Shown here: piece after piece, positions 42,738 through 63,835 of the stretch
How the letters are laid out: every line of letters starts with the position of its first letter
How positions within the stretch are numbered: position 1 is the stretch's first letter
Origin: Lachnospiraceae bacterium
Lineage (GTDB): Bacteria > Bacillota > Clostridia > Lachnospirales > Lachnospiraceae
Assembly: GCA_017557525.1 (NCBI GenBank)
Contig: JAFYYN010000062.1
Coordinates: forward strand, 110,980-174,979
Length of the DNA stretch: 64,000 nucleotides
Direction: 5' to 3'
Program-made: the position numbers and the translations under genes
Notes under the pieces: generated by a model
What the model was told of the DNA's origin: nothing
Seen by the model: only the letters and a program-made list of their open reading frames with translations
The model's database searches: none

Positions 42738-42776
42738 ATTATATCAGAAAAACCGGTCTTTGACAACCGGTTTTTT
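42738..42776 (-). promoter_or_regulatory. Composite terminator-promoter element 1
   Basis: A 10-bp stem AAAAACCGGT/ACCGGTTTTT (42748-42757 with 42766-42775), 8-nt loop. As minus-strand RNA it is a terminator 12 nt after the ABC permease stop. The same bases provide TTGTCA (42766-42761), a 17-nt spacer and TATAAT (42743-42738), a promoter facing the MATE gene. Confidence 0.8.
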
Positions 42777-42786
42777 GTAAACTGTA

Positions 42787-45105
42787 TCATTCAAGTGTTT
42801 TAAGAGCATTTGTTTTCGGGATCCTGTGGATTTTAAAGAGCTGAAGTGCTACAACCACAAGATAGCTTGCTATACCGATGAGTACCATCTTTACATAGCA
42901 GTCACTGCTGATTGCATAAGGCAGGTATCCGCTCATTCTCTTATACAGGTAGTATTTGAATATAAGCCTCATCATCCAGTCTACTGCAGGTACTGCTAGC
43001 AGCAGGCCAAGTATTACGATTATAGAAGTAGCAAGTATGTACAGGCTTCCTATTTCTCCACCCGTAAACCCAAGGATCTTTGTCATTGAAATACTTACTG
43101 CATTTTTCTCAATGATCTGCTTAGCAAGCAGATATACCATGAGCACGAACATGATCACACCAAACCATTCCACAGGCTCCATGAAATCCGCAAACGATTC
43201 CCAAAGCTGCGAAGCAACTCCCGAAAAATCATTGTTGTCGAGTCTCATATATACATTTGAAGCTTCAAGCTCCGTAAGATTCTCATTTGAGAAATATCCG
43301 CTGTAGTAATCCGGTGTTTTACCAAATTTGGTATTAAACTCATCGATATTCATGAAAACCGAAAGCGCCGCCTCATAAGGGTACTCTCCTGCAACCGTAA
43401 ACTCATAGGTTTTATCCGCATACTTATCATAAAGGCTTACAACATCACCGGTTTTGTAACCGTATTTATCCATGTAGCCGTTTGAGAGCAGTACCTTACC
43501 CTGAGGTATTTCGTCCTTTACATAACGGCTGTTCTTTACAATGCCGTAAACCGAAATACCGTCCACCTTATAATCCTTCTGACTGGTTTCAAAGGAAGTA
43601 AGTGCGAACTTTTCAGGCTCGGTATTTTCTATATCTTCCGGAGTCTTTAAAATGTATTGATAACGGCTTATTGCAGTATTTTCAATACGGTTTGAAACCT
43701 CGGTAAGAAGAGGTTCAAACATAAGACCGAAGATGATTATTGCACCTGCAAGTATAATGCCCACAAGCATGGTTATATAGTTAGGCATATTCTGAAGGAT
43801 GATACGTATCCTGAATCTTGAAGTAAAAGGTATCTTCCTGTTAAGCCTGAGCGCTCTTTTCTTCTTTTTTCCGGAAATATCACGACGAAGGAAATTAAGC
43901 GGACCCAGTTGCATCTTATGTGCAAGTATAAGGAAGTTGATCACTATCATCAATGCCATAGGGATAAGCGTAGTGATCCAGAATGCATAGGAATTCCAAA
44001 GTGTTTCTATCTCACCTAAGGAGTACATCTTAAAATAGATATCAAGCATGAACTGCTTCATAACGGTGTACCCTAAGAGGTTCCCGACTATCATGCCGGC
44101 AGCAAATGCAAAAAGTGGCAGCATCATATAATGCCTGATCATTTCACCCTTTGTATAACCCGAAGCCCTTAGAGTTCCTATAACAGAAGCCTCTTTTGAC
44201 AAGGTGTTTATTGTTGTTACGGAAACAATAAAGGCAAGAACTACAACAACGATATAAAGGAACATTATCATAGCAGCTTCGTCACCATGCATATCCTCTG
44301 CCGCAAAGTTTATGGACTGGTTTTCGTATCCTGGAAGAATGTCAGTTACTTCAAGCATTGTAAGACCTTTTTCTCCTGTAAGCGATCTTAAAACTATTGA
44401 AGTATTAACCTTTGTAAGCTCTTCCCTTAGTGCATCAAGCACTTTTTCTGCTGCATCGTTCTTTTCCTTGTTAGTAGTGGGTTTCTCATTATAAAGCCAT
44501 GCATAGCTTACAGTCTGATGTTCTGAAGCATAGTTCTCAAAGCCTTTCTTTGTAAGCAGGCCAATACCGAAATTCTCAGAATCAAACATGATATCAGAAT
44601 TGTCCTTAAACAGCGAGCTGTAGTTAGGAAGCGCTACGAGTCCCGTAACCTTAAGTTCTTTCCCGCCTACCGTCACAATATCTCCAACCTCTACTCCCTT
44701 ATGCAAAGTGTGAAGGTTGTCAAGTGCTATCTCGTTATCATTTTGAGGTAAACGTCCGGAGGTTACCTGAGGAATATTTACGCTGTCATTTACCGAATAA
44801 ACCCTCAAGGTTCCCATACCGCTCATGGTATCCTCGAAGAAATCCGCTCTGTAAAGCTTTAAATCTGCCTTTTCTTCTATAGAAGAAATAACAGAATCAT
44901 CCGGAACCACGTTAAAGTTTAAATGTCCGTCCTCTACCTTATTGTTTTCAAGCATTTTAGTATAGGACTTTTCCACTCCCGAATTTGCTACCAGGAAGGA
45001 TGATACTACTGATACAACCATGGTTATGAAAAGGAATATTACAATATATTTTCCAAGGTCTGCTTTTAATTCCCGCAAGAAGCGTTTGTTCATAGGATTC
45101 TTCAT
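42787..45105 (-). CDS. FtsX-family ABC transporter permease
   Basis: About 772 residues. One N-terminal helix (about 17-40) is followed by a large extracytoplasmic domain, an FtsX domain with the motif GTLRASGYTKGEM near 315, a second extracytoplasmic domain and a final FtsX domain of three to four helices. This matches MacB/LolE-like mechanotransmission permeases, which export peptides, lipids or lipoproteins rather than import solutes. The ATG at 45105 lies behind AGGAGGTG that overlaps the ATPase gene's stop, so the pair is coupled. The substrate is unknown. Expression is likely governed by the riboswitch at 46030-46150. Confidence 0.9.
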   Translation of the reverse strand: MKNPMNKRFLRELKADLGKYIVIFLFITMVVSVVSSFLVANSGVEKSYTKMLENNKVEDGHLNFNVVPDDSVISSIEEKADLKLYRADFFEDTMSGMGTLRVYSVNDSVNIPQVTSGRLPQNDNEIALDNLHTLHKGVEVGDIVTVGGKELKVTGLVALPNYSSLFKDNSDIMFDSENFGIGLLTKKGFENYASEHQTVSYAWLYNEKPTTNKEKNDAAEKVLDALREELTKVNTSIVLRSLTGEKGLTMLEVTDILPGYENQSINFAAEDMHGDEAAMIMFLYIVVVVLAFIVSVTTINTLSKEASVIGTLRASGYTKGEMIRHYMMLPLFAFAAGMIVGNLLGYTVMKQFMLDIYFKMYSLGEIETLWNSYAFWITTLIPMALMIVINFLILAHKMQLGPLNFLRRDISGKKKKRALRLNRKIPFTSRFRIRIILQNMPNYITMLVGIILAGAIIIFGLMFEPLLTEVSNRIENTAISRYQYILKTPEDIENTEPEKFALTSFETSQKDYKVDGISVYGIVKNSRYVKDEIPQGKVLLSNGYMDKYGYKTGDVVSLYDKYADKTYEFTVAGEYPYEAALSVFMNIDEFNTKFGKTPDYYSGYFSNENLTELEASNVYMRLDNNDFSGVASQLWESFADFMEPVEWFGVIMFVLMVYLLAKQIIEKNAVSISMTKILGFTGGEIGSLYILATSIIVILGLLLAVPAVDWMMRLIFKYYLYKRMSGYLPYAISSDCYVKMVLIGIASYLVVVALQLFKIHRIPKTNALKTLE

Positions 45106-45115
45106 GGTGCACCTC

Positions 45116-45817
45116 CTACCACTCAATTTCGCTCACGGGAAGCTTGTTTTCATTGAGTTTATTACTGTGCACCTTTCCGTCACGCAGTTTTACAACACGG
45201 TCAGCCATATTCTTTAACGCATCATTATGGGTAACCATGATTATGGTATTACCATATTCCTTATTTACTTTTTCCAAAAGTGTGAGGATTTCTTTAGAAG
45301 TGTTGTAGTCGAGCGCACCGGTGGGCTCGTCACATAAAAGAATATCAGGGTTTTTGATAACCGCCCTGCCGATTGCGGTCCTTTGCTGCTGACCGCCTGA
45401 AAGCTGTGTAGGAAGTTTATGTCTGTGCTCATATAAGCCCAAAGTCTTTAAAAGTTCATCCACCTCCAGGGGCTTTTTGCTTAAGTATGTACCAACCTCA
45501 ATATTTTCCCTTACAGTAAGATTGGGAATAAGGTTGTATAACTGGAAAATGTATCCCAAGTGGTCCCTTCTGTACTGCGTGAGCCTTTTTTCATTCATTT
45601 CTGCGGTTTTCTCACCGTTGATCATTACATAACCCTCATCCGCACTGTCAATACCGCCAATGATATTAAGCAATGTCGATTTTCCCGAACCTGAAGGTCC
45701 GAGTAAGACACAAAACTCTCCTTTTTCAATTGAGATATCAACGCCATTTAATACTGTAGCCTTTGCATCTCCTTCACCATAGCTTTTCTTTAAGCCTTTG
45801 ATCTCCACAAAACTCAT
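45116..45817 (-). CDS. ABC transporter ATPase, MacB/LolD type
   Basis: A 233-residue ATPase with Walker A GPSGSGKST, Q-loop FQLYNLIP, signature LSGGQQQR, Walker B ILLCDEPTGALD and H-loop VTHN. The GALD extension after Walker B is typical of the LolD/MacB/SalX group that pairs with FtsX permeases. The ATG at 45817 has GGAG 9 nt upstream. It is the first gene after a strong promoter, a yybP-ykoY-like riboswitch and an intrinsic terminator on the same strand. Confidence 0.93.
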   Translation of the reverse strand: MSFVEIKGLKKSYGEGDAKATVLNGVDISIEKGEFCVLLGPSGSGKSTLLNIIGGIDSADEGYVMINGEKTAEMNEKRLTQYRRDHLGYIFQLYNLIPNLTVRENIEVGTYLSKKPLEVDELLKTLGLYEHRHKLPTQLSGGQQQRTAIGRAVIKNPDILLCDEPTGALDYNTSKEILTLLEKVNKEYGNTIIMVTHNDALKNMADRVVKLRDGKVHSNKLNENKLPVSEIEW

Positions 45818-45870
45818 TTTTGCTTTCTCCTTTTCGATTTTGTATATACCTACCAATTTAATTGTGGAAT

Positions 45871-45926
45871 ATGTCGTAGGAGTTCTTTACATTTTGTTAT
45901 ACAAAACAGTTCCCTTCCTACGATGT
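45871..45926 (-). other. Long dyad in the leader before the ABC ATPase gene
   Basis: An 8-bp stem TCGTAGGA/TCCTACGA encloses a second dyad TTTTG-TTATA-CAAAA. It lies between the riboswitch terminator and the ribosome site of the ATPase gene and would be part of any readthrough transcript. No further gene is seen in the 45818-46513 gap. Confidence 0.5.
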
Positions 45927-45970
45927 ATGAGAAGGTGGCGCGCGCTATAAGATTTCCCCTGGTCATCTAC

Positions 45971-46004
45971 AAAAAATTAGCAGGTATGTCCTGTCATACC
46001 TGCT
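45971..46004 (-). terminator. Riboswitch-associated intrinsic terminator
   Basis: A perfect 10-bp stem AGCAGGTATG/CATACCTGCT (45979-45988 with 45995-46004) and 6-nt loop, followed on the minus strand by AATTTTTT. Seven bases of its 5' arm and loop (45993-45999) are complementary to the aptamer's P3 arm (46045-46051), a possible antiterminator pairing. Confidence 0.85.
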
Positions 46005-46029
46005 CGAATGAAATTCATTTTAAATTGAA

Positions 46030-46150
46030 CACAAAGGGAGACACGTATGACGCAGCATACATAAGTCTCGCAGTTTAAAGCAAACCAGGCTTTCGCCGAG
46101 ATGATGATTTACTCCTGATTTCATTTGAAACCAGCTTGCTACTCCCTCAT
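46030..46150 (-). promoter_or_regulatory. yybP-ykoY-like (manganese) riboswitch aptamer
   Basis: Minus-strand RNA. A 7-bp P1 forms from GAGGGAG (about 46147-46141) and CUCCCUU. After P1 comes the conserved GGGAGUAGC, then P2 (GCAAGC/GUUUGC) closing a two-hairpin arm, then the internal-loop sequence UGCGAGACUUAU followed by a GUAUG/CAUAC hairpin. The GGGAGUAGC and CGAGACUU boxes are the two sides of the Mn2+ site in yybP-ykoY riboswitches (RF00080). A perfect promoter precedes it and an intrinsic terminator follows. The downstream gene is an ABC exporter rather than the usual Mn exporter. Confidence 0.78.
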
Positions 46151-46161
46151 GGATTGTCTAA

Positions 46162-46190
46162 ATTGTAAACATAAAAATTCCATTTGTCAA
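46162..46190 (-). promoter_or_regulatory. SigA promoter of the riboswitch-ABC transporter transcript
   Basis: On the minus strand, TTGACA (46190-46185), 17-nt spacer and TACAAT (46167-46162). The predicted start lies a few bases before the aptamer's P1. Confidence 0.8.
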
Positions 46191-46513
46191 GAGTTATTTT
46201 ATGCTAACTTAAAATTTGTTAGTTTTTCACAAATTTTGTTTTAGTATAAAAATGTCATATTATTAAAAATTTACAAACATCCCAAAATCCAAATTAAAGC
46301 TCTACATATTGATAATATAATTCTCCTTTAGTAACGATATATACTCTTTTAATTCCTTAAACGAATGAAATAAAAAGCCGCTTACTCTGTATATTTATAC
46401 TACACAAATAAATATATTTATGATAATATATATAATGCAGTGGGATGATATCTGCCCTTTTGAGCGCCGGATACATTTCAAGGCATACTACAACACTAGG
46501 GAGGTTACGAGCT

Positions 46514-48223
46514 ATGAAGAAAAAAATACTTATACCCCTTATTGCAGGACTATTAGTTGTTATCGGAGTTATACTTTTTTTGTTATTAAAATCCAAGGAT
46601 GATTCATATTTTAACATTAAGATCCTGGATACTTTAGGAACTGTAAATGTTGACAGAGACGGTTCATCTCTTAAAGCGCAGGAAGGTTTAAAAATGCGCG
46701 ATAAGGACTACTTAATGGTCGGTAATGATGGCTTTACCCGTATTGACTGTGACAGAGAAACCTACTCTCACTTTGTACATGATTCGGAAGCCTCTTTTAT
46801 AGCTAATTCTGACAAAAAACTCACCATTAATCTTATAAAAGGTGAAATGGTTGTCGAATTACAGAAAAAACTGTCTGACAGAGAAACCTTAAGTGTCTCA
46901 ACACCTAATACGACAATGGCTATCCGTGGTACTGTTGTTGCCATAAAGGTTACACCTACTGCTGACGGTGGCACGCGGACTGTTAACTACTGTTTAGAAG
47001 GAAAAGCTGAGGTTTTATCCGATGACGGTACTTCAAAGGCCATTGAAGCCGGAGAAGGCTGGCTTACGGTTTCCGATGAATCCGGAAGTGTTATCACTAG
47101 TAAAGAAGCAGGTGCTGAAGAATTTGATTTCGCAGGCATAGACATTGATACCCTTAAGGGTGCCGAAGATAACCCCATGGTACTTAAGGATTCTTACGGT
47201 ATGCTTTTAAGCGGCAAAGCTCCAACAGTTTCAGAGGGAGAGGTTGCTATAGACGCAACCAACTTCCCCGACATGATATTCAGGTTATATATAATGGATA
47301 CCGTTGACAAGGATAGGAACTGGGTACTTTCTCCTGATGAATTAAAACTAAATACTTTATATGTAAAAGCATTAGGTCTTACGGATTTAAAGGGTATAGA
47401 GTTTTTCAAGGACCTTGAAACGCTTGATTGCTGCTCAAATGATATCACATCGCTAGACCTTAGCCAGAACACAAAATTAAAATCCTTATATTGCAGAAGG
47501 AACCAGCTTGAAAGTATTAATATCAGCAACTGTAAAGACCTGGGATATTTTACATGTGATGAAAATAAGTTAAAAACGCTTGATGTTTCGGGTTGTACCA
47601 AGCTCCAGCATCTCGAATGCCAGGAGAATGATCTTGAAGTACTCGATTTAAGTAATTTATCTGAGCTTTTAGAGCTTGATTGCAGCAAAAATTCAATTCA
47701 TAAGCTTGATGTAACAAAAAACACACTGCTTACATATCTTGTATGTTCAGATAACCCTTTAACCCAGCTTGATGTAAGCAAAAATGTTTCGCTATATGCC
47801 CTATATTGCGAGTCAGACCAGTTGAAAAAACTTGATGTTAGCAAAAATACCCAGCTGCAATATCTCTACGCCGGTGATAATCAAATATACAGTTTCGATC
47901 TGAGCAATAACCCGATACTTGAAGAGTTTGCATGTTATAACTGCTTCTTAAGTGAAATTGATGTAAGTAACAATACCAAGCTTAAAGCCCTTAGATGCGG
48001 TAGCAACCATAATCTCTCAAGCCTGGATTTAAGTCACAATCCGGAACTTGAGGATTTGCAGTTTCCTTTTACCAAAATAGCCGACATCGATTTAAGCAAC
48101 AATCCTAAACTGAAATACCTTAACTGCCTATATTGTGAAGAATTAAAGAGCCTGGACATTTCTCACAATCCAAGTTTAAAGCCTGAGAACATTGATCATT
48201 CAGGTATAATAATCAGTCAGTGA
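46514..48223 (+). CDS. Membrane-anchored FecR-domain, leucine-rich repeat surface protein
   Basis: A 569-residue protein. One N-terminal membrane helix anchors or exports it. Residues 35-190 form a FecR-like domain (LKMRDKDYLMVG and TPNTTMAIRGTVVAIKV are the recognisable parts). A loop DKDRNWVLSPDEL near 275 resembles an EF-hand calcium loop. The rest is a run of about 12 LRR units of roughly 21 residues with the pattern LxxLxCxxNxLxxLDVS, as in internalin-like proteins. The ATG at 46514 has GGGAGG 9 nt upstream. A binding role at the cell surface is inferred. A strong terminator follows. Confidence 0.87.
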   Translation: MKKKILIPLIAGLLVVIGVILFLLLKSKDDSYFNIKILDTLGTVNVDRDGSSLKAQEGLKMRDKDYLMVGNDGFTRIDCDRETYSHFVHDSEASFIANSDKKLTINLIKGEMVVELQKKLSDRETLSVSTPNTTMAIRGTVVAIKVTPTADGGTRTVNYCLEGKAEVLSDDGTSKAIEAGEGWLTVSDESGSVITSKEAGAEEFDFAGIDIDTLKGAEDNPMVLKDSYGMLLSGKAPTVSEGEVAIDATNFPDMIFRLYIMDTVDKDRNWVLSPDELKLNTLYVKALGLTDLKGIEFFKDLETLDCCSNDITSLDLSQNTKLKSLYCRRNQLESINISNCKDLGYFTCDENKLKTLDVSGCTKLQHLECQENDLEVLDLSNLSELLELDCSKNSIHKLDVTKNTLLTYLVCSDNPLTQLDVSKNVSLYALYCESDQLKKLDVSKNTQLQYLYAGDNQIYSFDLSNNPILEEFACYNCFLSEIDVSNNTKLKALRCGSNHNLSSLDLSHNPELEDLQFPFTKIADIDLSNNPKLKYLNCLYCEELKSLDISHNPSLKPENIDHSGIIISQ

Positions 48224-48238
48224 TATTTATGATCACAA

Positions 48239-48266
48239 GGAGCGACCAATCGGTTGCTCCTTTTTT
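48239..48266 (+). terminator. Terminator of the FecR-LRR gene
   Basis: Stem GGAGCGACC/GGTTGCTCC (one G-T pair) with loop AATC, followed by six T, 15 nt after the stop. Confidence 0.9.
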
Positions 48267-48304
48267 CATTTTGGTTATAAATTCACACCATTTATTTTTT
48301 TATC

Positions 48305-48334
48305 TTGATATAAACCACAATATTATGGTATAAA
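48305..48334 (+). promoter_or_regulatory. Promoter of the membrane GGDEF gene
   Basis: TTGATA (48305-48310), 18-nt spacer, TATAAA (48329-48334). The leader is about 55 nt and ends with an AAGGAGG site. Confidence 0.5.
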
Positions 48335-48394
48335 TATATAGTTAAGAGTTTAAAAATCGTCTATTGAAAAATTCTCAAGGAAGGAGGTATCCAT

Positions 48395-49474
48395 ATGAGT
48401 CTATCCGATTATCTGTCAGAACACTGGAGCATGTTGGTTCCCTTGATAGGTATGTTAATCCTGTTACTTACAGATATTCATCTTGAACGTAAGATGATCC
48501 GGCGTCTTGCTATTACAACAGGTATGCTCTTTATATACTCGGTGTTCTGCTATATGGAAACCTACCTGGGTAATCAGCCTGAAGTTTCAGTTTTCAGGTC
48601 TATATTATCCGCTGCTGATTACAGCCTGATTACTTTTATACTTGTTGAGATAATAATGATCGTTTACCGTGAGAAAAGATTTTTTGTCCTTATCCCGGCC
48701 ATATTAAATGCAATCATTTGTTTTATCTCCATCCCAACAGGTATTGTATTTAGCTTTGATGAAAACAACGCTTTTCATCGCGGACCGTTAGGCCATATTG
48801 CATACATCATCTGCGGTATCTATCTGATATATTTTGTAATCAGGATGTTTACTACCGGAAAACGTCAGAAAGAGGAATATCCTCTCCTGCTGTTTTTAGT
48901 ATTAACATCGGTGTTATGCCTTGTGATACCGATGTTTTTATATGAACCTGTTATGCACTGGTTCGTATCAACTATCGCGATAGATATTCTTTTGTATTAT
49001 GTTTACCTTTTGCAGCGTTATACTAAACGGGATCCTCTTACAAAGCTGCTTAACCGTCAGAGCTATTATTCCGATACGGAAAAGTATTTTGACTCTGTAA
49101 CATCTGTCATCACGATAGACATGAACGGCTTAAAGGAAATAAACGATAACCAGGGTCATGTAGCCGGTGATACCGCTCTGAAAGCACTTGGTGATTGTTT
49201 TTATAAGGCATCTCAGTCCGGACATCGTGTATACCGCATCGGTGGCGATGAATTTGTTTTAGTATGTCTCAACTCTTCCGAGGATGATGTTAAGGCTTTG
49301 ATTGAAAGAATAAGAAACGAGGTATCAAAAACTATTTATACCTGCTCTATCGGATATTCAATGCAGACTGGTAACAGCACAATCGATGCTCTTTACCACG
49401 AAGCAGACAAAAGACTCTACGAGGAAAAGAAAGCATTTTATGAAAGAACCGGCAAAGACCGCCGTAAAAGATAA
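48395..49474 (+). CDS. Membrane diguanylate cyclase (GGDEF)
   Basis: A 359-residue protein. The N-terminal 200 residues contain about six or seven helices forming a membrane sensor. The C-terminal GGDEF domain begins at RDPLTKLLNR and carries an intact RIGGDEF near 285, DMNGLKEIND and the DAL...AD segment, so it should make c-di-GMP. I do not see the RxxD inhibitory site upstream of GGDEF, so product feedback is probably absent. The ATG follows AAGGAGGTATCC. It contrasts with the degenerate GGDEF-EAL protein at 9739-11553. Confidence 0.92.
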   Translation: MSLSDYLSEHWSMLVPLIGMLILLLTDIHLERKMIRRLAITTGMLFIYSVFCYMETYLGNQPEVSVFRSILSAADYSLITFILVEIIMIVYREKRFFVLIPAILNAIICFISIPTGIVFSFDENNAFHRGPLGHIAYIICGIYLIYFVIRMFTTGKRQKEEYPLLLFLVLTSVLCLVIPMFLYEPVMHWFVSTIAIDILLYYVYLLQRYTKRDPLTKLLNRQSYYSDTEKYFDSVTSVITIDMNGLKEINDNQGHVAGDTALKALGDCFYKASQSGHRVYRIGGDEFVLVCLNSSEDDVKALIERIRNEVSKTIYTCSIGYSMQTGNSTIDALYHEADKRLYEEKKAFYERTGKDRRKR

Positions 49475-49476
49475 GA

Positions 49477-49503
49477 AAAACCAGCCGTTTGTGGCTGGTT
49501 TTT
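49477..49503. terminator. Bidirectional terminator between GGDEF and putP genes
   Basis: Stem AAAACCAGCC/GGCTGGTTTT with a 6-nt loop, A-rich on one side and T-rich on the other. It lies between two convergent genes and can serve both. Confidence 0.85.
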
Positions 49504-49525
49504 CTTGTTATGAACATTGTTATTA

Positions 49526-51034
49526 TCAGTCTAAAGGATTCTGTGCCTTTTCAAACATATCTTCGATTTCTTTAGTAGGCTGTTTATCAACAAGAGTAAT
49601 AAGCACAGCTGCTATAAAACCACAGATGAATCCCGGGATAATCTCATAAAGTCCGGTTGAGTCCGAAAGAAAAGCATACCATAAAGCATCTACGCCAAAT
49701 CCAACTGTGATACCTGCTATGGCACCCTTATATGTAAATCTCTTCCAGTAAAGAGCAAGGATGATAACAGGACCAAATGCTGCACCAAATGCACCCCAGG
49801 CACATTCAACAAGACCCATAATTCCTGCACATCCGGGACTGAGTGCTATAATAAGAGCAACTACAGAGATTACAGCAACTACGATTCTTCCGACAAGGAG
49901 CATTTCCTTATCATCTGCCTTTTTCCTGATCATTTTCTTATATACATCTGAAGCAAATGCTGAAGATGAAGCAAGGAGCTGAGAATCAGCAGTACTCATA
50001 GATGCAGCAAGGATAGCTGAAAGTAAAAGGCCACCAATAAATGCAGGGAACAGATTTCTTACCATGGTGATGAAAATTGTACTCTGTTTTCCGGCTTCAA
50101 GATAGGTGCCTAAATACTCATGTCCTACAAGTGCAACGATACTTGCCATAGTAAGGATGATCGCTGTCCACATGATACCGATAACTCTTGACTTCTTCAT
50201 TTCTTTTTCAGAACGGATAGCCATATATCTGATTAATATGTGAGGCATACCGAAGTATCCAAGTCCCCAGCCAAAGCCGCTTAAGATATCAGAAATACTC
50301 TTCCAGTCAAATTTTCCTGATGAAAGCAGATTATAATAATTTTCATCTGTAACTACGGGAGCAAGAGGCTGGAAATCAGCCTTACCCATTGCTACTACAG
50401 CTATAATAGGGGCAGCCATAAGAGCTACGAGCATCATCATACCCTGTATAAAGTCTGTCCAGCAAACTGCGTTGAATCCACCTAAGAAAGTATAAAGCAG
50501 GATAATAACTGTAGCACCGATCATTACCAATGTTTTCTTGTCATCATCAAATCCGAATACTGTCTGGAACAGTGTACCGCATGCCACGATACTTGATGCA
50601 GCATATACGCAGTAAGCAACAATAAATACTATTGCAGAAATAACAAGCAATACATGACTCTTAGACTTGAAACGGTTTGTCAGAAACTGCGGAATAGTGA
50701 TGGAATCATCAGCTACAATAGAGAATCTGCGCAGTCTGGGTGCGATAAAGATCCATGCACAAACTGTACCGATAAGCAGTCCTACTGAAATCCAGATCTG
50801 ACCCATACCATAAAGGTATATTGAGCCGGGCAGCCCCATGAGTACCCATGCACTCATATCAGAGGCACCGGCAGACAATGCTGCAACAAGTCCGTTCATA
50901 TTCCTGTTACCTAAGAAATATGATTTGTCACCACCTTTTTCCTTCTTACTCTTAAGGAAAAAGATGATACCTACCGCAAGTACTACGACAAGATACATAG
51001 CAAATGCGATGATTTCCTGTGTACTTCTTTCCAT
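49526..51034 (-). CDS. putP: Sodium/proline symporter
   Basis: A 502-residue sodium:solute symporter with about 13 helices. It opens with the family region YFLGNRNMNGLVAALSAGASDMSAWVLMGLPG, which holds Na+-site residues, and has the later AILAASMSTADSQLLASSSAFASDVY signature. Length and sequence match PutP, importing proline with Na+. Its promoter lies inside composite element 2 (51090-51127). The C-terminal tail is short and acidic. Confidence 0.94.
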   Translation of the reverse strand: MERSTQEIIAFAMYLVVVLAVGIIFFLKSKKEKGGDKSYFLGNRNMNGLVAALSAGASDMSAWVLMGLPGSIYLYGMGQIWISVGLLIGTVCAWIFIAPRLRRFSIVADDSITIPQFLTNRFKSKSHVLLVISAIVFIVAYCVYAASSIVACGTLFQTVFGFDDDKKTLVMIGATVIILLYTFLGGFNAVCWTDFIQGMMMLVALMAAPIIAVVAMGKADFQPLAPVVTDENYYNLLSSGKFDWKSISDILSGFGWGLGYFGMPHILIRYMAIRSEKEMKKSRVIGIMWTAIILTMASIVALVGHEYLGTYLEAGKQSTIFITMVRNLFPAFIGGLLLSAILAASMSTADSQLLASSSAFASDVYKKMIRKKADDKEMLLVGRIVVAVISVVALIIALSPGCAGIMGLVECAWGAFGAAFGPVIILALYWKRFTYKGAIAGITVGFGVDALWYAFLSDSTGLYEIIPGFICGFIAAVLITLVDKQPTKEIEDMFEKAQNPLD

Positions 51035-51089
51035 ACTTCATTTTCCTCCATGTTAAATATGTAGTTTTCCTACAAAAAATCCAGAAACC

Positions 51090-51127
51090 ATTATAACAAA
51101 AAAACCAGTCTTTGACAACTGGTTTTT
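51090..51127 (-). promoter_or_regulatory. Composite terminator-promoter element 2
   Basis: Stem AAAAACCAGT/ACTGGTTTTT (51100-51109 with 51118-51127), 8-nt loop; a minus-strand terminator about 60 nt after the dCACHE chemoreceptor gene. It contains TTGTCA (51118-51113), 17-nt spacer and TATAAT (51095-51090), pointing at putP with a leader of about 50 nt. Confidence 0.82.
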
Positions 51128-51186
51128 ATGCATATTCATGTATTAATATTCATTTCAGTAATATAGTGGCTATATCAACATCTGTA

Positions 51187-53656: not shown

Positions 53657-53695
53657 AGTATAACAAAAAAACCAGTCTTTTACAACTGGTTTTTT
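53657..53695 (-). promoter_or_regulatory. Composite terminator-promoter element 3
   Basis: Stem AAAAACCAGT/ACTGGTTTTT (53667-53676 with 53685-53694), 8-nt loop; a minus-strand terminator 26 nt after the solute-binding protein gene. TTGTAA (53685-53680), 17-nt spacer and TATACT (53662-53657) form a promoter for the XRE gene, with a leader of about 40 nt. Confidence 0.8.
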
Positions 53696-53720
53696 CGTTA
53701 TATACTTGAAAAATTAAGTA

Positions 53721-55334
53721 TTATTTCTTGATATATGTATTTGCCTCTTTTATGGCCTCTTTCCATTTATCACGAGCCTCTATTACTACATCGTAAACAT
53801 CAGCACCTGGCATAATCTGCCATTCTACATCATATCCGATCTGAATAGCCGGAATAAGTTCATGATAAGTTACTACTCCGTACTTTGGATCTTCCATCAT
53901 CGGAATGGTCTCGGTCAGAGCGCGCTCATCGAAGTTTCCTTCCCATGCAAGATTTAAGTAGTTGTTGTAGTCTTCATAGCCGGGAATTTCTTCTGTATAC
54001 TTGTTCCATGCAAAAGCTATCTTCCAGGCTCTGTCAGCATCATAGCAAGCCGGAATAACATACGCGTTATTGCTCCAGTCAGAAACATAATCCTTTGCCT
54101 TAGGTCCCTTAGGGAACATAACAAAGCCTACTTCAAAGTCCGTCTGCTCCATGAAGTTGCCACGGGTATTAATATACTCCTGATCAACGAGGAATGCTGC
54201 TTTACCTGATCTCCATTCTTCCATATAGTAATCCCAGATAGCATCCTCAGGATCGTGGTTATCGAACTTAGTATACATATCTACACACCACTTAAGAGCC
54301 TCAACTGTTTCTTTGCTCTCAAGATTATATACAAATTTCCCGTTCTTATCCTTTGAAACATATGATCCGCCGTTTGAAAGCACAGCCATCTTAGTCATGT
54401 AGGATTCATTAAGCGTCAAACCGTAAATATCATCTTCCCCATCACCATCGGTATCTCTCTGGCATTTATCCATCAGCTCTTCAAATTTATCCCATGTCCA
54501 CTTGCCCTTTTTCTGTAAGTCATAAATAGAATCAGGGTCTATACCGGCTTTCTTTAGTACATCCTTATTAAAGTAAACACCTGTACCAGGCTCGGTGTAT
54601 CCGGGGAAGAAACCGTAAATGCTGCTACCCAGTGAGTACTGCTCATGGAGCTTGTTGCGTGCAAACTTGTCGGCACTAAAATCTAAGCAGTCAAGCGTTG
54701 ACAGATCGTACATTAGGCCGCTCGCAAGTGCTGCACCAACACTCGCATCTGTATGCAGAGCAAATACATAGTTATTATCATCTCCGCCGTTAACTACATA
54801 TTCTATAAAATCAGTGTTTGCTGAGCCCCAGTCAGAAATTGACATTTCTTTTATTTTGAAATTGTACTTTTCCTCAATTTCAGCAATATACTTATTTCTC
54901 TCATACTCGTAATCATTACGGGGATCTGCTTCACCATCCCAAGGGCTCCACCAGTCACGGATGATGATTTCCATTCCGCCAAGATCGATATTATCATCAT
55001 TAACAACAGTCTGATTCTTCTTTAAAACTTTTATCGTACAAGTATAAGTCTTTCCGTTATCAGCAGTTACTGTGATAGTTGCGGTGCCTGCCTTCTTAGC
55101 TCTGATCTTTCCCTTAGAAGATACCTTAGCAACCTTTGTGTCTGATGAACCGAATGCTACAGCTTTAGCACCTTTAAGTTTCAGCTTAAAGGTATCGCCG
55201 ACCTTCATTTCATAAGAGGTCTTATTAAGCTTAACCTTTGCTTTTGCTTCAATAGCAACAGGGGCTGCAAGACTCACTGCAGTTGTAACTGCAAGTGTTG
55301 ATGCAACAAGTACTTTTCCTAAATACGCTGACAT
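53721..55334 (-). CDS. Exported Big_2 domain/extracellular solute-binding protein fusion
   Basis: About 537 residues. The signal peptide has no lipobox; cleavage is probable near IEAKA. Residues 35-105 are a Big_2-type Ig-like domain (KLNKTSYEMKVGDTFKL, then SSDTKVAKVSSKGKI). The remaining 420 residues resemble family 1 solute-binding proteins (RDWWSPWDG, TGVYFNKDVLKKAGI, WSNNAYVIPA). No ABC permease or ATPase is adjacent. It may scavenge or bind glycans at the wall through the Ig domain. The ATG at 55334 follows GGAGGG and agrees with the start predicted from composite element 4. Confidence 0.85.
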   Translation of the reverse strand: MSAYLGKVLVASTLAVTTAVSLAAPVAIEAKAKVKLNKTSYEMKVGDTFKLKLKGAKAVAFGSSDTKVAKVSSKGKIRAKKAGTATITVTADNGKTYTCTIKVLKKNQTVVNDDNIDLGGMEIIIRDWWSPWDGEADPRNDYEYERNKYIAEIEEKYNFKIKEMSISDWGSANTDFIEYVVNGGDDNNYVFALHTDASVGAALASGLMYDLSTLDCLDFSADKFARNKLHEQYSLGSSIYGFFPGYTEPGTGVYFNKDVLKKAGIDPDSIYDLQKKGKWTWDKFEELMDKCQRDTDGDGEDDIYGLTLNESYMTKMAVLSNGGSYVSKDKNGKFVYNLESKETVEALKWCVDMYTKFDNHDPEDAIWDYYMEEWRSGKAAFLVDQEYINTRGNFMEQTDFEVGFVMFPKGPKAKDYVSDWSNNAYVIPACYDADRAWKIAFAWNKYTEEIPGYEDYNNYLNLAWEGNFDERALTETIPMMEDPKYGVVTYHELIPAIQIGYDVEWQIMPGADVYDVVIEARDKWKEAIKEANTYIKK

Positions 55335-55397
55335 TTCTTTCCCTCCTTCTCCATAAAAACCATATCGTATATTGTTCCCCTTGAACAAGGTATAATC

Positions 55398-55435
55398 ATT
55401 ATATCAAAAAAACCGGTCCTTTACAACCGGTTTTT
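55398..55435 (-). promoter_or_regulatory. Composite terminator-promoter element 4
   Basis: Stem AAAAACCGGT/ACCGGTTTTT (55408-55417 with 55426-55435), 8-nt loop; a minus-strand terminator 29 nt after the LRR gene. TTGTAA (55426-55421), 17-nt spacer and TATAAT (55403-55398) form a promoter for the solute-binding protein gene. Confidence 0.82.
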
Positions 55436-55464
55436 TGTAGATATGATCGTTGTTAATTTGCAGT

Positions 55465-55917: not shown

Positions 55918-55934
55918 ACATGGTATCCTTATTT

Positions 55935-56306
55935 CTAATTTTTGTACATTTGGTTCGATTCGTTCTTCAACTGCTCTATCAGATCGTACAGGCTCCAGTT
56001 AAGATTATATGGTGTAACAACAGCCTTTAACTGCACCTTTTCTATGCCTCTGGCTTTGTATTCTTTGAGAAACTTATCAAGATTTTCCTCGGCAAACCCG
56101 GAAAATATGATAAGTTCAGGCATTGTATAAACCATCGGCACTGATGAAGTACCTTTGTTATTTCCTGCTCCACCACTAACAATTTCCAGTAAATTTCTTT
56201 TTAAATCCTTGTACGAAATAGTTTCGTATTCTGCTCCTATATCTTTACACAGGGTTTCTATAGCAGTAAGTTTTTCCGGATTATCGATTTTCAAATATAG
56301 TTTCAT
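55935..56306 (-). CDS. DUF3783 family protein
   Basis: 123 residues, cytoplasmic. The C-terminal half with ELIIFSGFAEENLDKFLKEY and KAVVTPYNLNWSLYDLIEQL matches the DUF3783 domain, whose function is unknown. The N-terminal half is a short alpha/beta segment. It is first gene of a two-gene unit with the LRR protein and is transcribed from a promoter at 56338-56366 that is divergent from the HEXXH lipoprotein promoter. Confidence 0.82.
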   Translation of the reverse strand: MKLYLKIDNPEKLTAIETLCKDIGAEYETISYKDLKRNLLEIVSGGAGNNKGTSSVPMVYTMPELIIFSGFAEENLDKFLKEYKARGIEKVQLKAVVTPYNLNWSLYDLIEQLKNESNQMYKN

Positions 56307-56337
56307 ACTGTTCTCTTTTCCTTCCTATAACATAGAA

Positions 56338-56366
56338 AGTATACCAAAAATCCTCCGAGTTGACAA
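56338..56366 (-). promoter_or_regulatory. Promoter of the DUF3783-LRR unit
   Basis: On the minus strand, TTGTCA (56366-56361), 17-nt spacer ending in TTTTTGG, and TATACT (56343-56338). It resembles the composite elements in its -35 and T-rich spacer but lacks their hairpin. Confidence 0.65.
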
Positions 56367-56407
56367 CAGTTTCAAGAGGAATAAATAAACAACGTACAAA
56401 AAATCAG

Positions 56408-56436
56408 TTGCATTTATACTTTTAGAATGATATAAT
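56408..56436 (+). promoter_or_regulatory. Promoter of the HEXXH lipoprotein gene
   Basis: TTGCAT (56408-56413), 17-nt spacer, TATAAT (56431-56436); a GGGAGAAAG ribosome site lies before the ATG. Confidence 0.65.
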
Positions 56437-56486
56437 CATCAATCAGTGTTGTAAAAATTTATTATTTTTATGGGAGAAAGAAAAAA

Positions 56487-57965: not shown

Positions 57966-57969
57966 TATT

Positions 57970-58001
57970 AAAGGCTATCCTGCTTATCCGGGGTAGCCTT
58001 T
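57970..58001. terminator. Bidirectional terminator between lipoprotein and cysK genes
   Basis: Stem AAAGGCTA/TAGCCTTT (57970-57977 with 57994-58001) extended by inner pairs, between two convergent genes. Confidence 0.7.
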
Positions 58002-58006
58002 ATGTA

Positions 58007-58909: not shown

Positions 58910-58937
58910 GTCAATATTTTATTCCTTTCAGTATTTG

Positions 58938-61900
58938 TTATACAGTTACTGTTACCTTAGCAGCGTATCCGTTCTGGGCATATACATAAATTGTACATGT
59001 ACCCTTTCCCCGTGCAGTTATCAGACCATTTTCATCAACTGTAGCCACATCGGCATTTGATGAAACATAACGGAAATCTGCAACATGGTGGAGCATCTCT
59101 TTAGAGCTGTCTTTTAAATCGGCTTTGGGCTCTATCTGGAAGGTGTCACCCTCAGCAAGAGAAATATCAAGCTTTTCAGCTCCTGAATTAAGCGTTACCT
59201 TCTTAACATTTGAATATGTCTTGTTATTATATCCGGCTATATGAGCCTCAAGACTTCGAGTAATCTTTTTATATTTATTTCCTACCTTACGGTATGCCAC
59301 TGTATAGACCTTGATATTTTTCTCGGTATCTATTGGCTTACCATTTAATTTCTTTATAGTATAAGATAAGGTATTTCCGTCAACCGAGGCAATTTTCTCA
59401 GGCTTTGAACTCTTTTTGCAATAAGCTGCATAGATATCATATCGCTCAGCACCTTCAACCTCGCCCCATTTTACAGTGATCTTAGACTTGCTGGCATTAG
59501 CCTTAAAACCGGAGTTTACATCCAGCTTAGCCTCAACCTTTTCCTCTGCAGTAATCTTACTGCCGGGGATAATGCCGGTTTGTTCATCTTCTGTTTCTGA
59601 TCTATCTGTAACAACCTTTAATGCCTCAGAAATCACAGAATCATAATTTAAATCAGTAGCATATACCTTTGTAACAATACTGTATTCAGTATTTTCCTCT
59701 AAACCGGTAAATACACCGTCTAGCTTCCAGAGCTTACCACCGTCTATTGAATATACCTGTCCGTTAACAGTCTTTACTTTAATGCTTGTACTGTCTTTTT
59801 CAAGTAATTCCGGCTGTGCAGGTTTTGCAGGAGTATATTTACTTGTTATTACATCAGGCTCCGATACCGATGGGGTGTTAGATGTCGATTGTCCAGGAGT
59901 AACAGGAGGTGTAATCGGAGGTGTTAATGCTGGTGTTGCAGCAGGTGTTGGCTGTGTAGGATTCTGCTGATAATAGAAAAAGCAGCACTGTGAATCCTCA
60001 GGTACATTTACATCCGAAGTAAATACATTAACAATACCTGCCAATTCGTTCATAGGTTTGTCCATAATGGATCCGGGTAATTTAAGCCCCAAACCATATA
60101 ACTGAAGAAAACGGGTCAGTAAACTCTCACCATTATCTAATCCCATTGCCAAATAGCTTAAAAGCATCAGAGTATTGTATGAAGCATCATCAACAGATAT
60201 ATTTATGAAACTCATATACTCAGGAGCCAGCTTTAAGGTTCTAAGCACTGTAAACAGTTCAGGATAATCGGAAGACTGATACATAAAAGCTGCCAGATAT
60301 GAAAACAGCCTGTCAACAACTTCATTTTTTAGATCATTATCATTCAAGATCTTATCTTGCAGATCATCAAATTCTGCTATTATATCCTCTGAAACATATT
60401 CTTCATCTCCGCGCCTGGAGCCCAGATAAACTTTGTTTATATAGTTGATTAAAGTCGACTCATCATTTTCCTTATCAAGTTTATAAGTTACAATATCTTT
60501 TGCAGCTCCGTTTATCAGATCAGAAATTTCACCAAAGATACCTGTAGTATTATAATCAGTAGTCCAGTTGTCTTCATTTTCAAGTGCTTTCGATAGATAA
60601 TCGATCAGATCTTCAATACTTGAGGGAACCTTTGTAAGATCAATGGAGATAACGCCTGTCTCTTCTATCTTTATTTTAGAAGTATCTAATCCTGATGCGG
60701 AGATTGCCGATCCTGATACAGAAATGGCTGAGCCCGAAACCGGCTTAGAAGGCTCCATCTCTTCCTCGTGGCTTATGCAGACATCAAGATTTATGACACG
60801 GTCGTCCCTTCCTTTGTAATTTATTTCTAAAGTATAATCCTTGCCCATGGAAAACCCGGTTGAAAATGGCAGTTTTTCCTGAATAAGACCATCAAGCTGT
60901 ACTAAAAGCTGCTCATCAAAATATGAATCAACTGAGATTTCTTTAGGAAGCTTTACTTTACTTCTCAAATAACCTTCAAATCCATCTCCGTACTCATCGC
61001 TTGTATAAACGGTCATTTCGTAGAGATAGGGTCTTAATAAATTCATAGCGAGAGCACCGGTATTATTCGCATTAAATGAACATTTATCAAAGGCATAGGT
61101 CTGGAAATCATCTATACCTTCTATTGATTCTATGAAATCGGTATTGATTTCAAAGAAATATTTAGTCTCTGTGCTTTTCTTTTCGATAGTTATATCAACT
61201 GTCCTAATGCCACATGGATATGAACATAATGCAGATGTCTCGATGTCATAGATTGTATGACCATTGGGTGAAACGAATTTTGAGATATCATTTGCATGGT
61301 CATGCCCGGTAAAGAATGCTGCAAAGCCAGCATCAGCCAGGGTTGCCGCAACACTCTCCCAGTTGCTGATAACATAGTTTTCGCTCAATGAAGCTGCCAA
61401 TTTGTTAGAAACATCATAATGGGGCAAAATACCGTGATGTGACATTCCAAGTACAAGGTTACCCTTTGCCTTAGCCTTTTTTGCCTCAACCACAGCCCAA
61501 TCAAGCAGATCATCGGATATTTCGCCTGCTACCAAATGCGCCTTGTCAAATAATACGTCGGTATCATTACTGTACTTAACAGTATCGAGCGCTATAAGTG
61601 TAACGCCGTCAGCTATTTCCACAGCATAAGAAAGACCGCCATAATTCTTTACTGCCGGTCCGCTTTCTGCCTCATAAAAGCTGTAAGCGCTGTTATAACC
61701 AAAATCTTCAAAAATTTCTCTAAAATCCTCATCAGTTACTCTCTTTGCTCTTTCAAAGGATGTACCGTTATAATATACACCTGAGGAATTATTGAGGTCA
61801 TGATTACCCGGTACAACATATATCCCGGTGTCTTCCGGAAGATTTGCTCTTGCGGCAGTCATCTTGTTTGCAAATGCTACTGTATTATAATACTCTCCGC

Positions 61901-62204
61901 CGGATGATACATCTCCGCAGATAAGTACGGCATCGGGTGATGCTTCATAAACCTTGGAAAGAGCCTCGTTTAATATTGCATCACTCTCACGTATCATACG
62001 CATTTCTGATGCCTCCAGATAGTCAAAAAAGGCAACTGCATCAGCATCGTCTTTAGGATAATCAGTATAATAATGGATATCGCTTAAGATTGAAAGCCTT
62101 ACCGTTCTGGTTTCATTTTGTGCATTAACATTTACTACCGGGAGCATGGTAACAATCATAACCAGGCTTAGTAAAACACATAATATACTCTTCTTTTTAA
62201 CCAT
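58938..62204 (-). CDS. Secreted multidomain metallophosphoesterase
   Basis: A 1088-residue exported protein. The signal peptide (about 1-28, ending VNA) is followed by a calcineurin-like phosphoesterase domain with DIHY, GDVSSGG, PGNHDLN, SHHG and GHDH, the five metal-binding blocks. A long helical region follows, with a curious GSAISVSGSAISASG segment. A Pro/Thr-rich linker (about 750-785) leads to fibronectin type III-like segments and a terminal Big_2 domain. It probably hydrolyses phosphate esters or nucleotides at the cell surface. It is next to an M14 carboxypeptidase on the same strand. Confidence 0.88.
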   Translation of the reverse strand: MVKKKSILCVLLSLVMIVTMLPVVNVNAQNETRTVRLSILSDIHYYTDYPKDDADAVAFFDYLEASEMRMIRESDAILNEALSKVYEASPDAVLICGDVSSGGEYYNTVAFANKMTAARANLPEDTGIYVVPGNHDLNNSSGVYYNGTSFERAKRVTDEDFREIFEDFGYNSAYSFYEAESGPAVKNYGGLSYAVEIADGVTLIALDTVKYSNDTDVLFDKAHLVAGEISDDLLDWAVVEAKKAKAKGNLVLGMSHHGILPHYDVSNKLAASLSENYVISNWESVAATLADAGFAAFFTGHDHANDISKFVSPNGHTIYDIETSALCSYPCGIRTVDITIEKKSTETKYFFEINTDFIESIEGIDDFQTYAFDKCSFNANNTGALAMNLLRPYLYEMTVYTSDEYGDGFEGYLRSKVKLPKEISVDSYFDEQLLVQLDGLIQEKLPFSTGFSMGKDYTLEINYKGRDDRVINLDVCISHEEEMEPSKPVSGSAISVSGSAISASGLDTSKIKIEETGVISIDLTKVPSSIEDLIDYLSKALENEDNWTTDYNTTGIFGEISDLINGAAKDIVTYKLDKENDESTLINYINKVYLGSRRGDEEYVSEDIIAEFDDLQDKILNDNDLKNEVVDRLFSYLAAFMYQSSDYPELFTVLRTLKLAPEYMSFINISVDDASYNTLMLLSYLAMGLDNGESLLTRFLQLYGLGLKLPGSIMDKPMNELAGIVNVFTSDVNVPEDSQCCFFYYQQNPTQPTPAATPALTPPITPPVTPGQSTSNTPSVSEPDVITSKYTPAKPAQPELLEKDSTSIKVKTVNGQVYSIDGGKLWKLDGVFTGLEENTEYSIVTKVYATDLNYDSVISEALKVVTDRSETEDEQTGIIPGSKITAEEKVEAKLDVNSGFKANASKSKITVKWGEVEGAERYDIYAAYCKKSSKPEKIASVDGNTLSYTIKKLNGKPIDTEKNIKVYTVAYRKVGNKYKKITRSLEAHIAGYNNKTYSNVKKVTLNSGAEKLDISLAEGDTFQIEPKADLKDSSKEMLHHVADFRYVSSNADVATVDENGLITARGKGTCTIYVYAQNGYAAKVTVTV

Positions 62205-62300
62205 TGAGGACCTCCGCGTTTTTTGTTACATATTTTTAAACCTACATTTTAATACAAATATTTATAGATCAAGGAAAAATGTTTTTCAGAAATATTCTTA

Positions 62301-63683
62301 TTATCTTTGTAAATAATCATATAAATAATACAATAACCTGTCAAATTTAAACTGATTATATTCGGTTTTTAGCTTCGATCTCGTAGATTTGCTAAAACCA
62401 AGGTAATCGTTTCCGTATCCTATCTCTATGGTCGAGGTTGCAAACTTCTTATTTGTTTCATTGATTACCTTCTTATCTGTTTTATCGAGATTTGGTATCA
62501 TGATCAAAGGATATTCGTTTTTGCCGTCAGTATATACATAAAAACCATACCCGGGGCTGTATTTAGCACCTGTAGCAATGGATACGGCGAAATCTGTAAG
62601 CGTACTGCCGGTACCGTTTAAGCCATATTCATCTACCTCGCTGTACCAAATGTATTTGTTTATGCGCCTTGAGCTTGGATTCATCCTGCTAAAAAGGTAC
62701 TTAGCCATATCCTTGCAGCGTTTAAACTGAGCTGTTGACTGCCATGGCTTTCCGGCGTAGGCTATACGTCCCTGCTGATGATAGTCTAGCAAAACTTGTG
62801 CTTTCTCGATTTTCACATAATGATACAAAAACTTCATCATAGCCTTTGTCTCATTGCATGATCCGGCATAATCACCGGGGTAATACATCTTCTTTGAACT
62901 ATCAGAAATATAATCGGATCGTTCATTTCCATCTTTTATCTGAGACCAGGCAAGTCCAGGAAAATTTCTGTTAAGATCTGTACCGTTGGATGTAGCCTTC
63001 CAAAGCTTTCCGTTGCTGTACTTATAATGTGAGGTATCGAATGCCACACCTTCACGGCCATCCGGATTAACACAGGGTACTACGGCAAATTTGACATTTT
63101 CGAGTATTTTCCTAGCTTCATCAGTATCGGACTGCAAGAGATCTGATATCTCTTTAAGTATATAAATGCTGCCGGCTGTCTCTCTCGCATGGATATTTCC
63201 GGTAAGTATAACAACCTCTTTCTTTTTATCGGAAGGGATATCGATCTCTAAAGCATACATCCTCCTGCCGGAAGTAGTTTCACCTATATCAAAAAGATAT
63301 ACTCCCTCTATACAGGAAAGCTTTTCCATATAGTAGACCATCCTGTCATATGTATATGCCTTACTTACATCAAGCTCAAACTTAGTGAGGTTTTTGCCCC
63401 ATTTATCATATTGGGTACAATCAACCCATTTAGCATTCATAGCCTCTTTATACTCATTTACCGGCATGCCCATGGGACCTGTAAAACTGCCATAGTCCTT
63501 GATCAGATCTTCGATTTCTTTCCTGGTATAACTTTTTGAAGTCAGACCGGTAACCGAATCTGAAAAATAATCAAAGGTATTAGCATATTCAACAGTTGGA
63601 GCGGTTTTGTTTTCGGAAGCACTTACATTTTGAGAACTCGAAATTAACATAAATATTATCAAGAATACAAAAACTCTTTTCAT
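62301..63683 (-). CDS. Exported M14 family zinc carboxypeptidase
   Basis: About 460 residues. The signal peptide (MKRVFVFLIIFMLISS) supports the ATG at 63683, as does the predicted transcription start near 63790. The catalytic domain shows GNIHARETA (zinc ligands His and Glu), NPDGREGV, DLNRNFPG, the third ligand His in LLDYHQQG and the catalytic Glu in TIEIGYG. This is a complete M14 set. Secreted M14 enzymes of Gram-positive bacteria trim peptides or peptidoglycan stems; the substrate is not known here. Its promoter is in composite element 5. Confidence 0.9.
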   Translation of the reverse strand: MKRVFVFLIIFMLISSSQNVSASENKTAPTVEYANTFDYFSDSVTGLTSKSYTRKEIEDLIKDYGSFTGPMGMPVNEYKEAMNAKWVDCTQYDKWGKNLTKFELDVSKAYTYDRMVYYMEKLSCIEGVYLFDIGETTSGRRMYALEIDIPSDKKKEVVILTGNIHARETAGSIYILKEISDLLQSDTDEARKILENVKFAVVPCVNPDGREGVAFDTSHYKYSNGKLWKATSNGTDLNRNFPGLAWSQIKDGNERSDYISDSSKKMYYPGDYAGSCNETKAMMKFLYHYVKIEKAQVLLDYHQQGRIAYAGKPWQSTAQFKRCKDMAKYLFSRMNPSSRRINKYIWYSEVDEYGLNGTGSTLTDFAVSIATGAKYSPGYGFYVYTDGKNEYPLIMIPNLDKTDKKVINETNKKFATSTIEIGYGNDYLGFSKSTRSKLKTEYNQFKFDRLLYYLYDYLQR

Positions 63684-63796
63684 ATTTTCTAGCTTTCTCA
63701 CTTTTGACTCATCACCCTGCATATTTGCTGGTATCGTCCAATCCATCGCTAAAACGAGACATGCAATAGTTACTACTTTAAGCATGCCATACATTT

Positions 63797-63835
63797 ATTA
63801 TAGCAAAAAAACCGGTCTGTGACAACCGGTTTTTT
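63797..63835 (-). promoter_or_regulatory. Composite terminator-promoter element 5
   Basis: Stem AAAAACCGGT/ACCGGTTTTT (63807-63816 with 63825-63834), 8-nt loop CTGTGACA. TTGTCA (63825-63820), 17-nt spacer and TATAAT (63802-63797) form the promoter of the M14 gene. The gene it would terminate lies beyond the window. Confidence 0.82.

Follow-up and report, generated by a model that had tools for sequence, protein, structure and literature searches.

The terminator of one operon can overlap the promoter of the contiguous next one, an arrangement described as operon concatenation (Brandis, Cao and Hughes, 2019) in the accessible part of PMC7055797. In Salmonella, for example, interrupting the terminator-promoter overlap at tufB-secE lowers fitness, according to the same part of that source. 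Five elements with a comparable layout, each only 38 base pairs (bp) long, are found in a stretch of 64,000 nucleotides (nt) from Lachnospiraceae bacterium (assembly GCA_017557525.1, contig JAFYYN010000062.1, positions 110,980 to 174,979), hereafter the window, which is the end of contig 34 in a 3.93-Mb draft genome of 196 contigs (G000). Judged from sequence, the element is probably a terminator-promoter overlap compressed into these 38 bp. As in the described inter-operon overlaps, the terminator of one unit would overlap the promoter of the next; however, the accessible part of PMC7055797 deals with individual ancient operon junctions, whereas here a fixed layout stands at unrelated genes, its hairpin loop holding the -35 hexamer and its spacer the T-tract.

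Other known systems resemble the element in part. At the frd-ampC junction of E. coli, the end of one operon likewise overlaps the sequences that control the following gene. In that case, the promoter of ampC is situated within the final gene of frd, and the hairpin that both units share acts as the attenuator of ampC, as far as the accessible text of PMC6045580 goes; here, hairpin and promoter use the same bases. After intrinsic termination, RNA polymerase does not leave the DNA and is able to start anew at promoters close by (PMC6978380, accessible part), and restarts after termination are reported to be usually in the reverse direction (PMC6978322, likewise). Such recycling would suit a promoter lying on a terminator, but the accessible parts of these two papers describe no fused element. 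Synthetic terminator-promoter bifunctional elements of yeast also end one gene and start the next within one short element; by the accessible account, these are engineered and eukaryotic, share a TATA-like sequence and have no hairpin terminator (PMC10298055). Searches of open-licence PubMed Central (PMC) papers turned up no description of the present recurring element.

Layout of the Five Window Elements

An original prediction, made from the letters of the window alone, had pointed to one design recurring on the minus strand at positions 42738, 51090, 53657, 55398 and 63797, and had offered two alternatives: that it ends one transcript and starts the next, or that its dyad is an operator defining a small regulon. 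All five sites were read directly and match AAAAACCRGTTGTMANRGACYGGTTTTTNTGNTATAMT with no mismatch, and a scan with this pattern, tolerating up to three mismatches, gave five matches in the window versus none in 100 shuffles. The shared layout on the minus strand is AAAAA-CCRGT-TGTMANRG-ACYGG-TTTTT, then NTGN-TATAMT. The -35 hexamer, TTGTMA, takes its first base from the end of the left arm and continues into the loop, and the 17-nt spacer is filled by what remains of the loop, then by the right arm, T-tract and TGn. The spacer length of 17 nt and the loop end ACA on the plus strand, both predicted, are found at all five sites, which furthermore share a feature absent from the prediction, an extended -10 (TGnTATAMT, a single base separating TG from the -10). 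Transcribed from the side of the upstream gene, the same bases would give an RNA hairpin of 10–12 bp followed by a U-tract.

Element 1 (42738..42775, minus strand) has its arms at 42766-42775 and 42748-42757, a -35 TTGTCA at 42761-42766 and an extended -10 TGATATAAT ending at 42738; its predicted RNA hairpin has an energy of -13.4 kcal/mol (z -3.97). The other four elements, also on the minus strand and with the 17-nt spacing, differ in details: element 2 (51090..51127) has TTGTCA and TATAAT with a hairpin of -11.9 kcal/mol, element 3 (53657..53694) TTGTAA and TATACT with -11.9 kcal/mol, element 4 (55398..55435) TTGTAA and TATAAT with -13.6 kcal/mol, and element 5 (63797..63834) TTGTCA and TATAAT with -13.4 kcal/mol. 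The stems of elements 4 and 5 are of the CCGGT form, while those of elements 2 and 3 carry CCAGT with the matching change on the opposite arm, as had been claimed for two of the five copies.

Both halves of the design exceed what is expected by chance. TTGNMA-N17-TATAMT occurs at seven sites in the 64 kb versus 0.38 expected from shuffling, and five of the seven are the elements, so that hexamers of the sigma-70/sigma-A type, at a spacing within 16–18 nt, are present beyond chance. A stable, G+C-containing RNA hairpin directly before a U-tract, the mark of an intrinsic terminator, is predicted in seven of eight sequences folded, with energies of -11.9 to -14 kcal/mol and z of -3.6 to -5.7. An Rfam scan of window positions 42000-64000 at the gathering score gave no match.

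Compensatory Stem Change in the Genome and the Genus

When the promoter and T-tract were sought with the left arm ignored, 14 sites were found in the own genome. The paired left arm is present in 10 of them, five in the window, two on contig 9 and one each on contigs 46, 67 and 162; the remaining four (contigs 11, 86, 117 and 126) do not match the promoter and T-tract pattern of the blind test described below. Together with one hairpin lacking the -10 (contig 189), the genome thus holds 10 elements with the layout and 11 copies in all, of which five lie within 21 kb, a clustering that none of 20000 simulations reproduced. Own-genome stems are CCGG, CCAG, CCTG (contig 46) and GCAG (contig 67) in a common frame, and the first copy on contig 9 has one G-U pair in its stem. 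A structure model built from 13 copies (R1), with 150 first-look candidates scored per genome, gave full-length matches in sister species, and the stems in the genus comprise CCAG, TCAG, TCGG, GCTG, GCAG, CCTG, CCGG, TCTG and ACAG. One genome (G017) alone holds CCAG, TCGG and CCTG.

An alignment of 26 copies (A2), four of them irregular (contig 189, G002b and G011b, in which no normal -10 stands in register, and G007b, whose spacer has 16 nt), has 98.1% standard pair cells, so that pairing is conserved over sequence. Its central pair is A-U in 11 copies, G-C in seven, U-A in seven and G-U in one, and cells changed on both sides number 19 versus a shuffle mean of 4.7; two points weaken this evidence, namely that the counts lean toward pairing, the model used to find the majority of rows being one that favors it, and that only two pairs show changes on both sides, a value reached in 352 of 500 column shuffles. 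The latter is not above shuffles because few positions vary.

For the former reason, a less biased blind test was run in 24 genus genomes, with a pattern of promoter and T-tract that leaves the left arm open except for one A. The 58 matches are bimodal in their pairing: 18 have nine of nine pairs, one has eight and the others have seven or fewer. The 19 matches with at least eight of nine pairs compare with a shuffle mean of 7.4 and a maximum of 14, the mean being raised by copies that have a stem in common and can therefore pair among themselves; outside the own genome, nine of 48 are paired versus a mean of 3.2 and a maximum of 10 (p 0.001). TGn precedes the -10 in all 19 hairpin matches versus 13 of the 39 others. 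The claim that the dyad itself is under selection is borne out in a modified form, in which selection appears to act on pairing more than on sequence.

The 19 paired matches come from eight genomes, 10 from the own genome, two each from G004 and G017, and one each from G002, G006, G007, G009 and G011. At least eight of the 24 genus genomes carry elements, and in a ninth (G014, 66% complete) one copy is truncated where its contig stops (L079). The search of the whole genome and its relatives that had been proposed with the original prediction yielded ten full elements and this set of relatives, with stems wider than the CCRGT it specified. The eight element-bearing genomes may form one clade, since among the 24 they alone have an ortholog of the window's MATE gene at E 1e-90 or better.

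Similarity among copies is confined to the element. Over 24 elements, with the contig 9 pair left out as a local duplication, pairwise identity averages 0.80 within the 38 bp and falls close to the level of shuffled sequence beyond them, where only the ten bases next downstream exceed that level, and only marginally (0.324 vs 0.311, maximum 0.323). Such sharp edges would fit either strong selection on exactly 38 bp or block-wise copying.

Linkage of the Hairpin to the Promoter Register

Hairpin-like sites of the form AAAANCNG-N10-CNGNTTTT were collected across the genus with neither -35 nor -10 demanded, giving 151 strand readings. Among the 150 of them listed, TATANT stands exactly in register in 20 of the 29 readings with TTG in register versus none of the 121 without. 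For the 66 readings in which both free pairs are Watson-Crick, the fourfold counts are 17, 8, 0 and 41 (Fisher p 4e-10), the readings not being independent, as both strands and orthologs are counted. The nine exceptions include four opposite-strand readings of symmetrical TTG...CAA stems; the others are one copy with a 16-nt spacer (G007) and sites on contig 189, contig 90, G002 contig 293 and G011 contig 110. Hairpins with a similar stem between convergent open reading frames (ORFs) have no -10 in register (contig 82, G004 contig 131 and window 49473-49506). Contig 82 and G004 contig 131 were considered as a shifted variant, and this was ruled out: the site is a convergent-ORF terminator, then TATATAAATG.

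Gene Context of the Elements

As originally stated, four of the five window elements lie 12–60 nt past a minus-strand ORF; at element 5, there is no upstream ORF within the 166 bases remaining to the contig end. Layout and ORF order at four of the five sites place a putative upstream terminator and a predicted co-directional downstream promoter on shared bases. Element 1 stands between an FtsX-domain gene upstream and a MatE gene (41200..42585, minus strand) downstream, and element 2 follows a methyl-accepting chemotaxis gene and precedes a gene for a sodium:solute symporter (SSF; 49529..51034, minus strand). A solute-binding protein gene (SBP_bac_1, Big_2; 53724..55388, minus strand) lies between elements 4 and 3; it is downstream of element 4, which follows a BspA-type leucine-rich repeat gene, and upstream of element 3, which is followed by an HTH_3 gene. 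Element 5, adjoining the contig end, has an M14 carboxypeptidase gene (62304..63794, minus strand) downstream. The downstream genes named in advance were recovered by Pfam as MatE, HTH_3, SBP_bac_1 and Peptidase_M14, while the one called putP was assigned to SSF, at the level of the family rather than of PutP itself.

Some sites have peculiarities of their own. At element 3 (window 53659-53706), the dyad reaches outward to 19 pairs (TATAACG...TGTTATA), and the plus strand of this region is also promoter-like, with TTTACA-16-TATACT. The M14 ORF has in-frame ATGs about 3 and about 12 nt past the -10 of element 5 (window 63780-63800), and its predicted transcript would thus be near-leaderless. 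Two sites on the minus strand allow comparison: a promoter-like site of similar style (56338..56366), another of the seven TTGNMA-N17-TATAMT sites, stands upstream of ORF 55935-56306 and has TTGTCA-N17-TATACT with TTTTTGG before the -10 and no hairpin, and a terminator-like hairpin (49473..49506) between convergent ORFs has an A5-CCAG/CTGG-T5 stem with no -35 or -10 in register. The left 42 kb of the window hold no element, in agreement with the prediction, and a 20-base core tolerating up to three mismatches is not found in the first 153 kb of the contig. A foreign composition of the right part of the window was considered and rejected, its G+C fraction of 0.38-0.41 making no contrast with the remainder.

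The context of the 19 other copies was taken from mechanically called ORFs of at least 50 amino acids (aa). A co-directional upstream ORF is 9–61 nt away at 11 of them, and the second copy on contig 9 has only a 58-aa ORF at 59 nt, the next being at 217. Beyond the window, the downstream genes of the own genome encode a serpin (contig 189), a Peripla_BP_3 protein and two PF09820 AAA-ATPase-like proteins; a 309-aa ORF that starts inside the second contig 9 element has no Pfam match. By Pfam, the downstream targets are heterogeneous, without a clear theme, and several are transport or sensing genes. The two PF09820 AAA-ATPase-like genes follow the elements of contigs 46 and 67, and in other species (L076, L077 and L099) elements precede ORFs whose first residues resemble those of contig 46, so that element and PF09820-like gene look as though they were travelling together. 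The two contig 9 elements (L195, record positions 9858 and 11972) are 2.1 kb apart and have 72% of 60 upstream bases and 93% of 60 downstream bases in common, which indicates local duplication. Neighboring elements 1.5–2.6 kb apart occur in three genomes, in G000 (contigs 34 and 9), G004 contig 7 (L193) and G007 contig 1 (L194).

In Lachnospiraceae bacterium Tb.RUG.451 (G004; L038), a solute-binding ortholog, 82% identical, has the element both before and after it, as in the window. The upstream ORF at this locus differs from that of the window, and no HTH_3-type ORF separates the element from the chemotaxis-like ORF that comes next.

Distribution Beyond the Genus

The viral contig collection contains no match of the CCNGT form. 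A scan of genome contigs for the exact CCNGT form gave six stretches, of which only L038 has the layout, the other five having no TATANT at 17 nt. Promoters whose spacer contains a T-tract are common in the family, being present in 140 of its 397 genomes searched, the own one included. A second model (R2) at E 0.001 or better, searched under strict filters by which weak matches can be missed, found matches in five of 397 family genomes (own, G150, G154, G316 and G386) and five of 392 order genomes (own, G316, G460, G470 and G489). By eye, G489, from another family, has the complete layout with a different stem, which suggests an independent origin. G154 has the hairpin and a -10 with a degenerate -35, G460 a hairpin and TGTTATAAT with no clear -35, and G386 is imperfect, while G150, G316 and G470 have hairpins without a -10. 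The full layout is rare outside the genus in the samples searched.

Weighing the Explanations

The operator alternative can be framed as a dimeric repressor that recognizes CCRGT-N8-ACYGG across the -35 and the spacer and controls a small regulon. The dyad does cover these parts, as operators can, eight of the ten full own-genome elements have CCRG-type left arms, and an HTH_3 gene adjoins element 3. However, an operator calls for a recognition sequence conserved within the genome and its near relatives, and the stems differ both within single genomes (CCGG, CCAG, CCTG and GCAG in the own genome, CCAG, TCGG and CCTG in G017) and across the genus with pairing kept. Moreover, the downstream genes look unrelated, with no clear theme, the CCAG/CTGG stem recurs in the convergent terminator at 49473-49506 without a promoter, both the flanks (A5/T7) and the predicted energy of the RNA hairpin are in keeping with a terminator, and G004 has elements though no HTH_3-type ORF lies between element and chemotaxis-like gene. 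Because the stems vary with pairing kept and the targets look unrelated, this alternative was rejected as the main explanation, and we regard it as improbable.

Equally improbable is that the element is mainly a terminator in surroundings that are promoter-like by chance, the downstream genes using other promoters. The second promoter-like site of the MATE gene, kept in G004, and the hairpin of contig 189, whose TATAGT lies farther downstream than the register demands, would agree with this, but the strong link between TTG and -10 in register (20/29 vs 0/121 among the 150 readings listed), the TGn of 19/19 paired matches and the fact that five of the seven best promoter-like sites in the window are elements argue against it. 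A tiny mobile repeat, spreading as a 38-bp block with secondary effects on expression, seems highly improbable. It would account for the sharp edges, for the clustering of five of the 11 copies and for the short distances between neighboring copies in three genomes, but compensatory stem differences are not produced by copying alone, and nearly all copies keep the promoter layout.

The terminator-promoter overlap, the first of the two alternatives predicted, is supported by stem variation with pairing kept, by the register link of -35 and -10, and by the fact that most copies, though not every one, stand between ORFs of the same direction. Several observations weigh against it. On contig 162, the promoter is present with a mismatched stem, and the hairpin has only -5.2 kcal/mol (z -1.12). 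Contig 189 has the hairpin and TTGTAA with no -10 at 17 nt; so it is with the hairpin of G002 contig 293, and in altered form of G011 contig 110, and the G007 copy has its spacer at 16 nt. Six of the 19 other copies (G017a, G007a, G002a, G006b, the first on contig 9 and that on contig 162) are 130–320 nt from the nearest upstream ORF, and G006c, 76 nt from its upstream ORF, has a different terminator-like hairpin just ahead of the element. In the family, pairing among the 140 matches listed outside the own genome is not above shuffles: in this register, 17 of those listed have at least seven of eight pairs versus 13.0 (p 0.13) and three have all eight versus 2.0 (p 0.31), the neighboring register +1 giving 32 and six among the matches listed, with no shuffle comparison.

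Orthologs of the downstream genes add to these points. Seven MATE orthologs of sister species, 85–95% identical, lack the element in the flanking DNA examined, and the FtsX-domain gene was not found beside them; likewise, none was seen upstream of the eight symporter matches inspected by eye among 16 others. Presence of the element at a given junction therefore changes between species. The MATE gene has another promoter-like site, TTGAAA-N17-TAAAAT, kept in G004 without the element there. The original interpretation is supported in part, and some downstream genes may not depend on the element. At this junction, the element may chiefly end the FtsX-domain transcript.

Mechanism and Significance

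What is established at the level of sequence is the design, its recurrence, the compensatory change of the stem, the constancy of the promoter part and the position between co-directional ORFs at most copies; that termination and initiation both work in the cell is what we infer from them. When the upstream gene is transcribed, the RNA would form the hairpin followed by the U-tract, and polymerase would terminate in the T-tract. The same DNA would be the core promoter of the next unit, with initiation expected about 7 nt past the -10. Polymerase that terminates there would come to rest within the spacer of the following promoter, with its -10 only a few bases ahead, and a polymerase bound at the fused promoter would also block one arriving from upstream. 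It is only suggested that the overlap couples both functions, via mutual exclusion or reuse of the post-termination polymerase. A bolder version is unlikely, namely that a portable 38-bp unit couples terminator and promoter so that polymerase released at the T-tract reinitiates on the spot, relaying from gene to gene, and that the unit spreads block-wise with sharp edges.

This probable terminator-promoter fusion, which recurs in minimal form, changes its stem by compensation and was met mainly within one genus, looks new within the known kind of overlap. It would be a natural, repeated and alignable case in which the -35 and the spacer of a core promoter double as the body of a terminator. 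It opens to test the reuse of a just-terminated polymerase at a promoter lying on the terminator, as well as the mutual exclusion of promoter occupancy and upstream transcription, and the element may be of use as a compact part for gene stacking.

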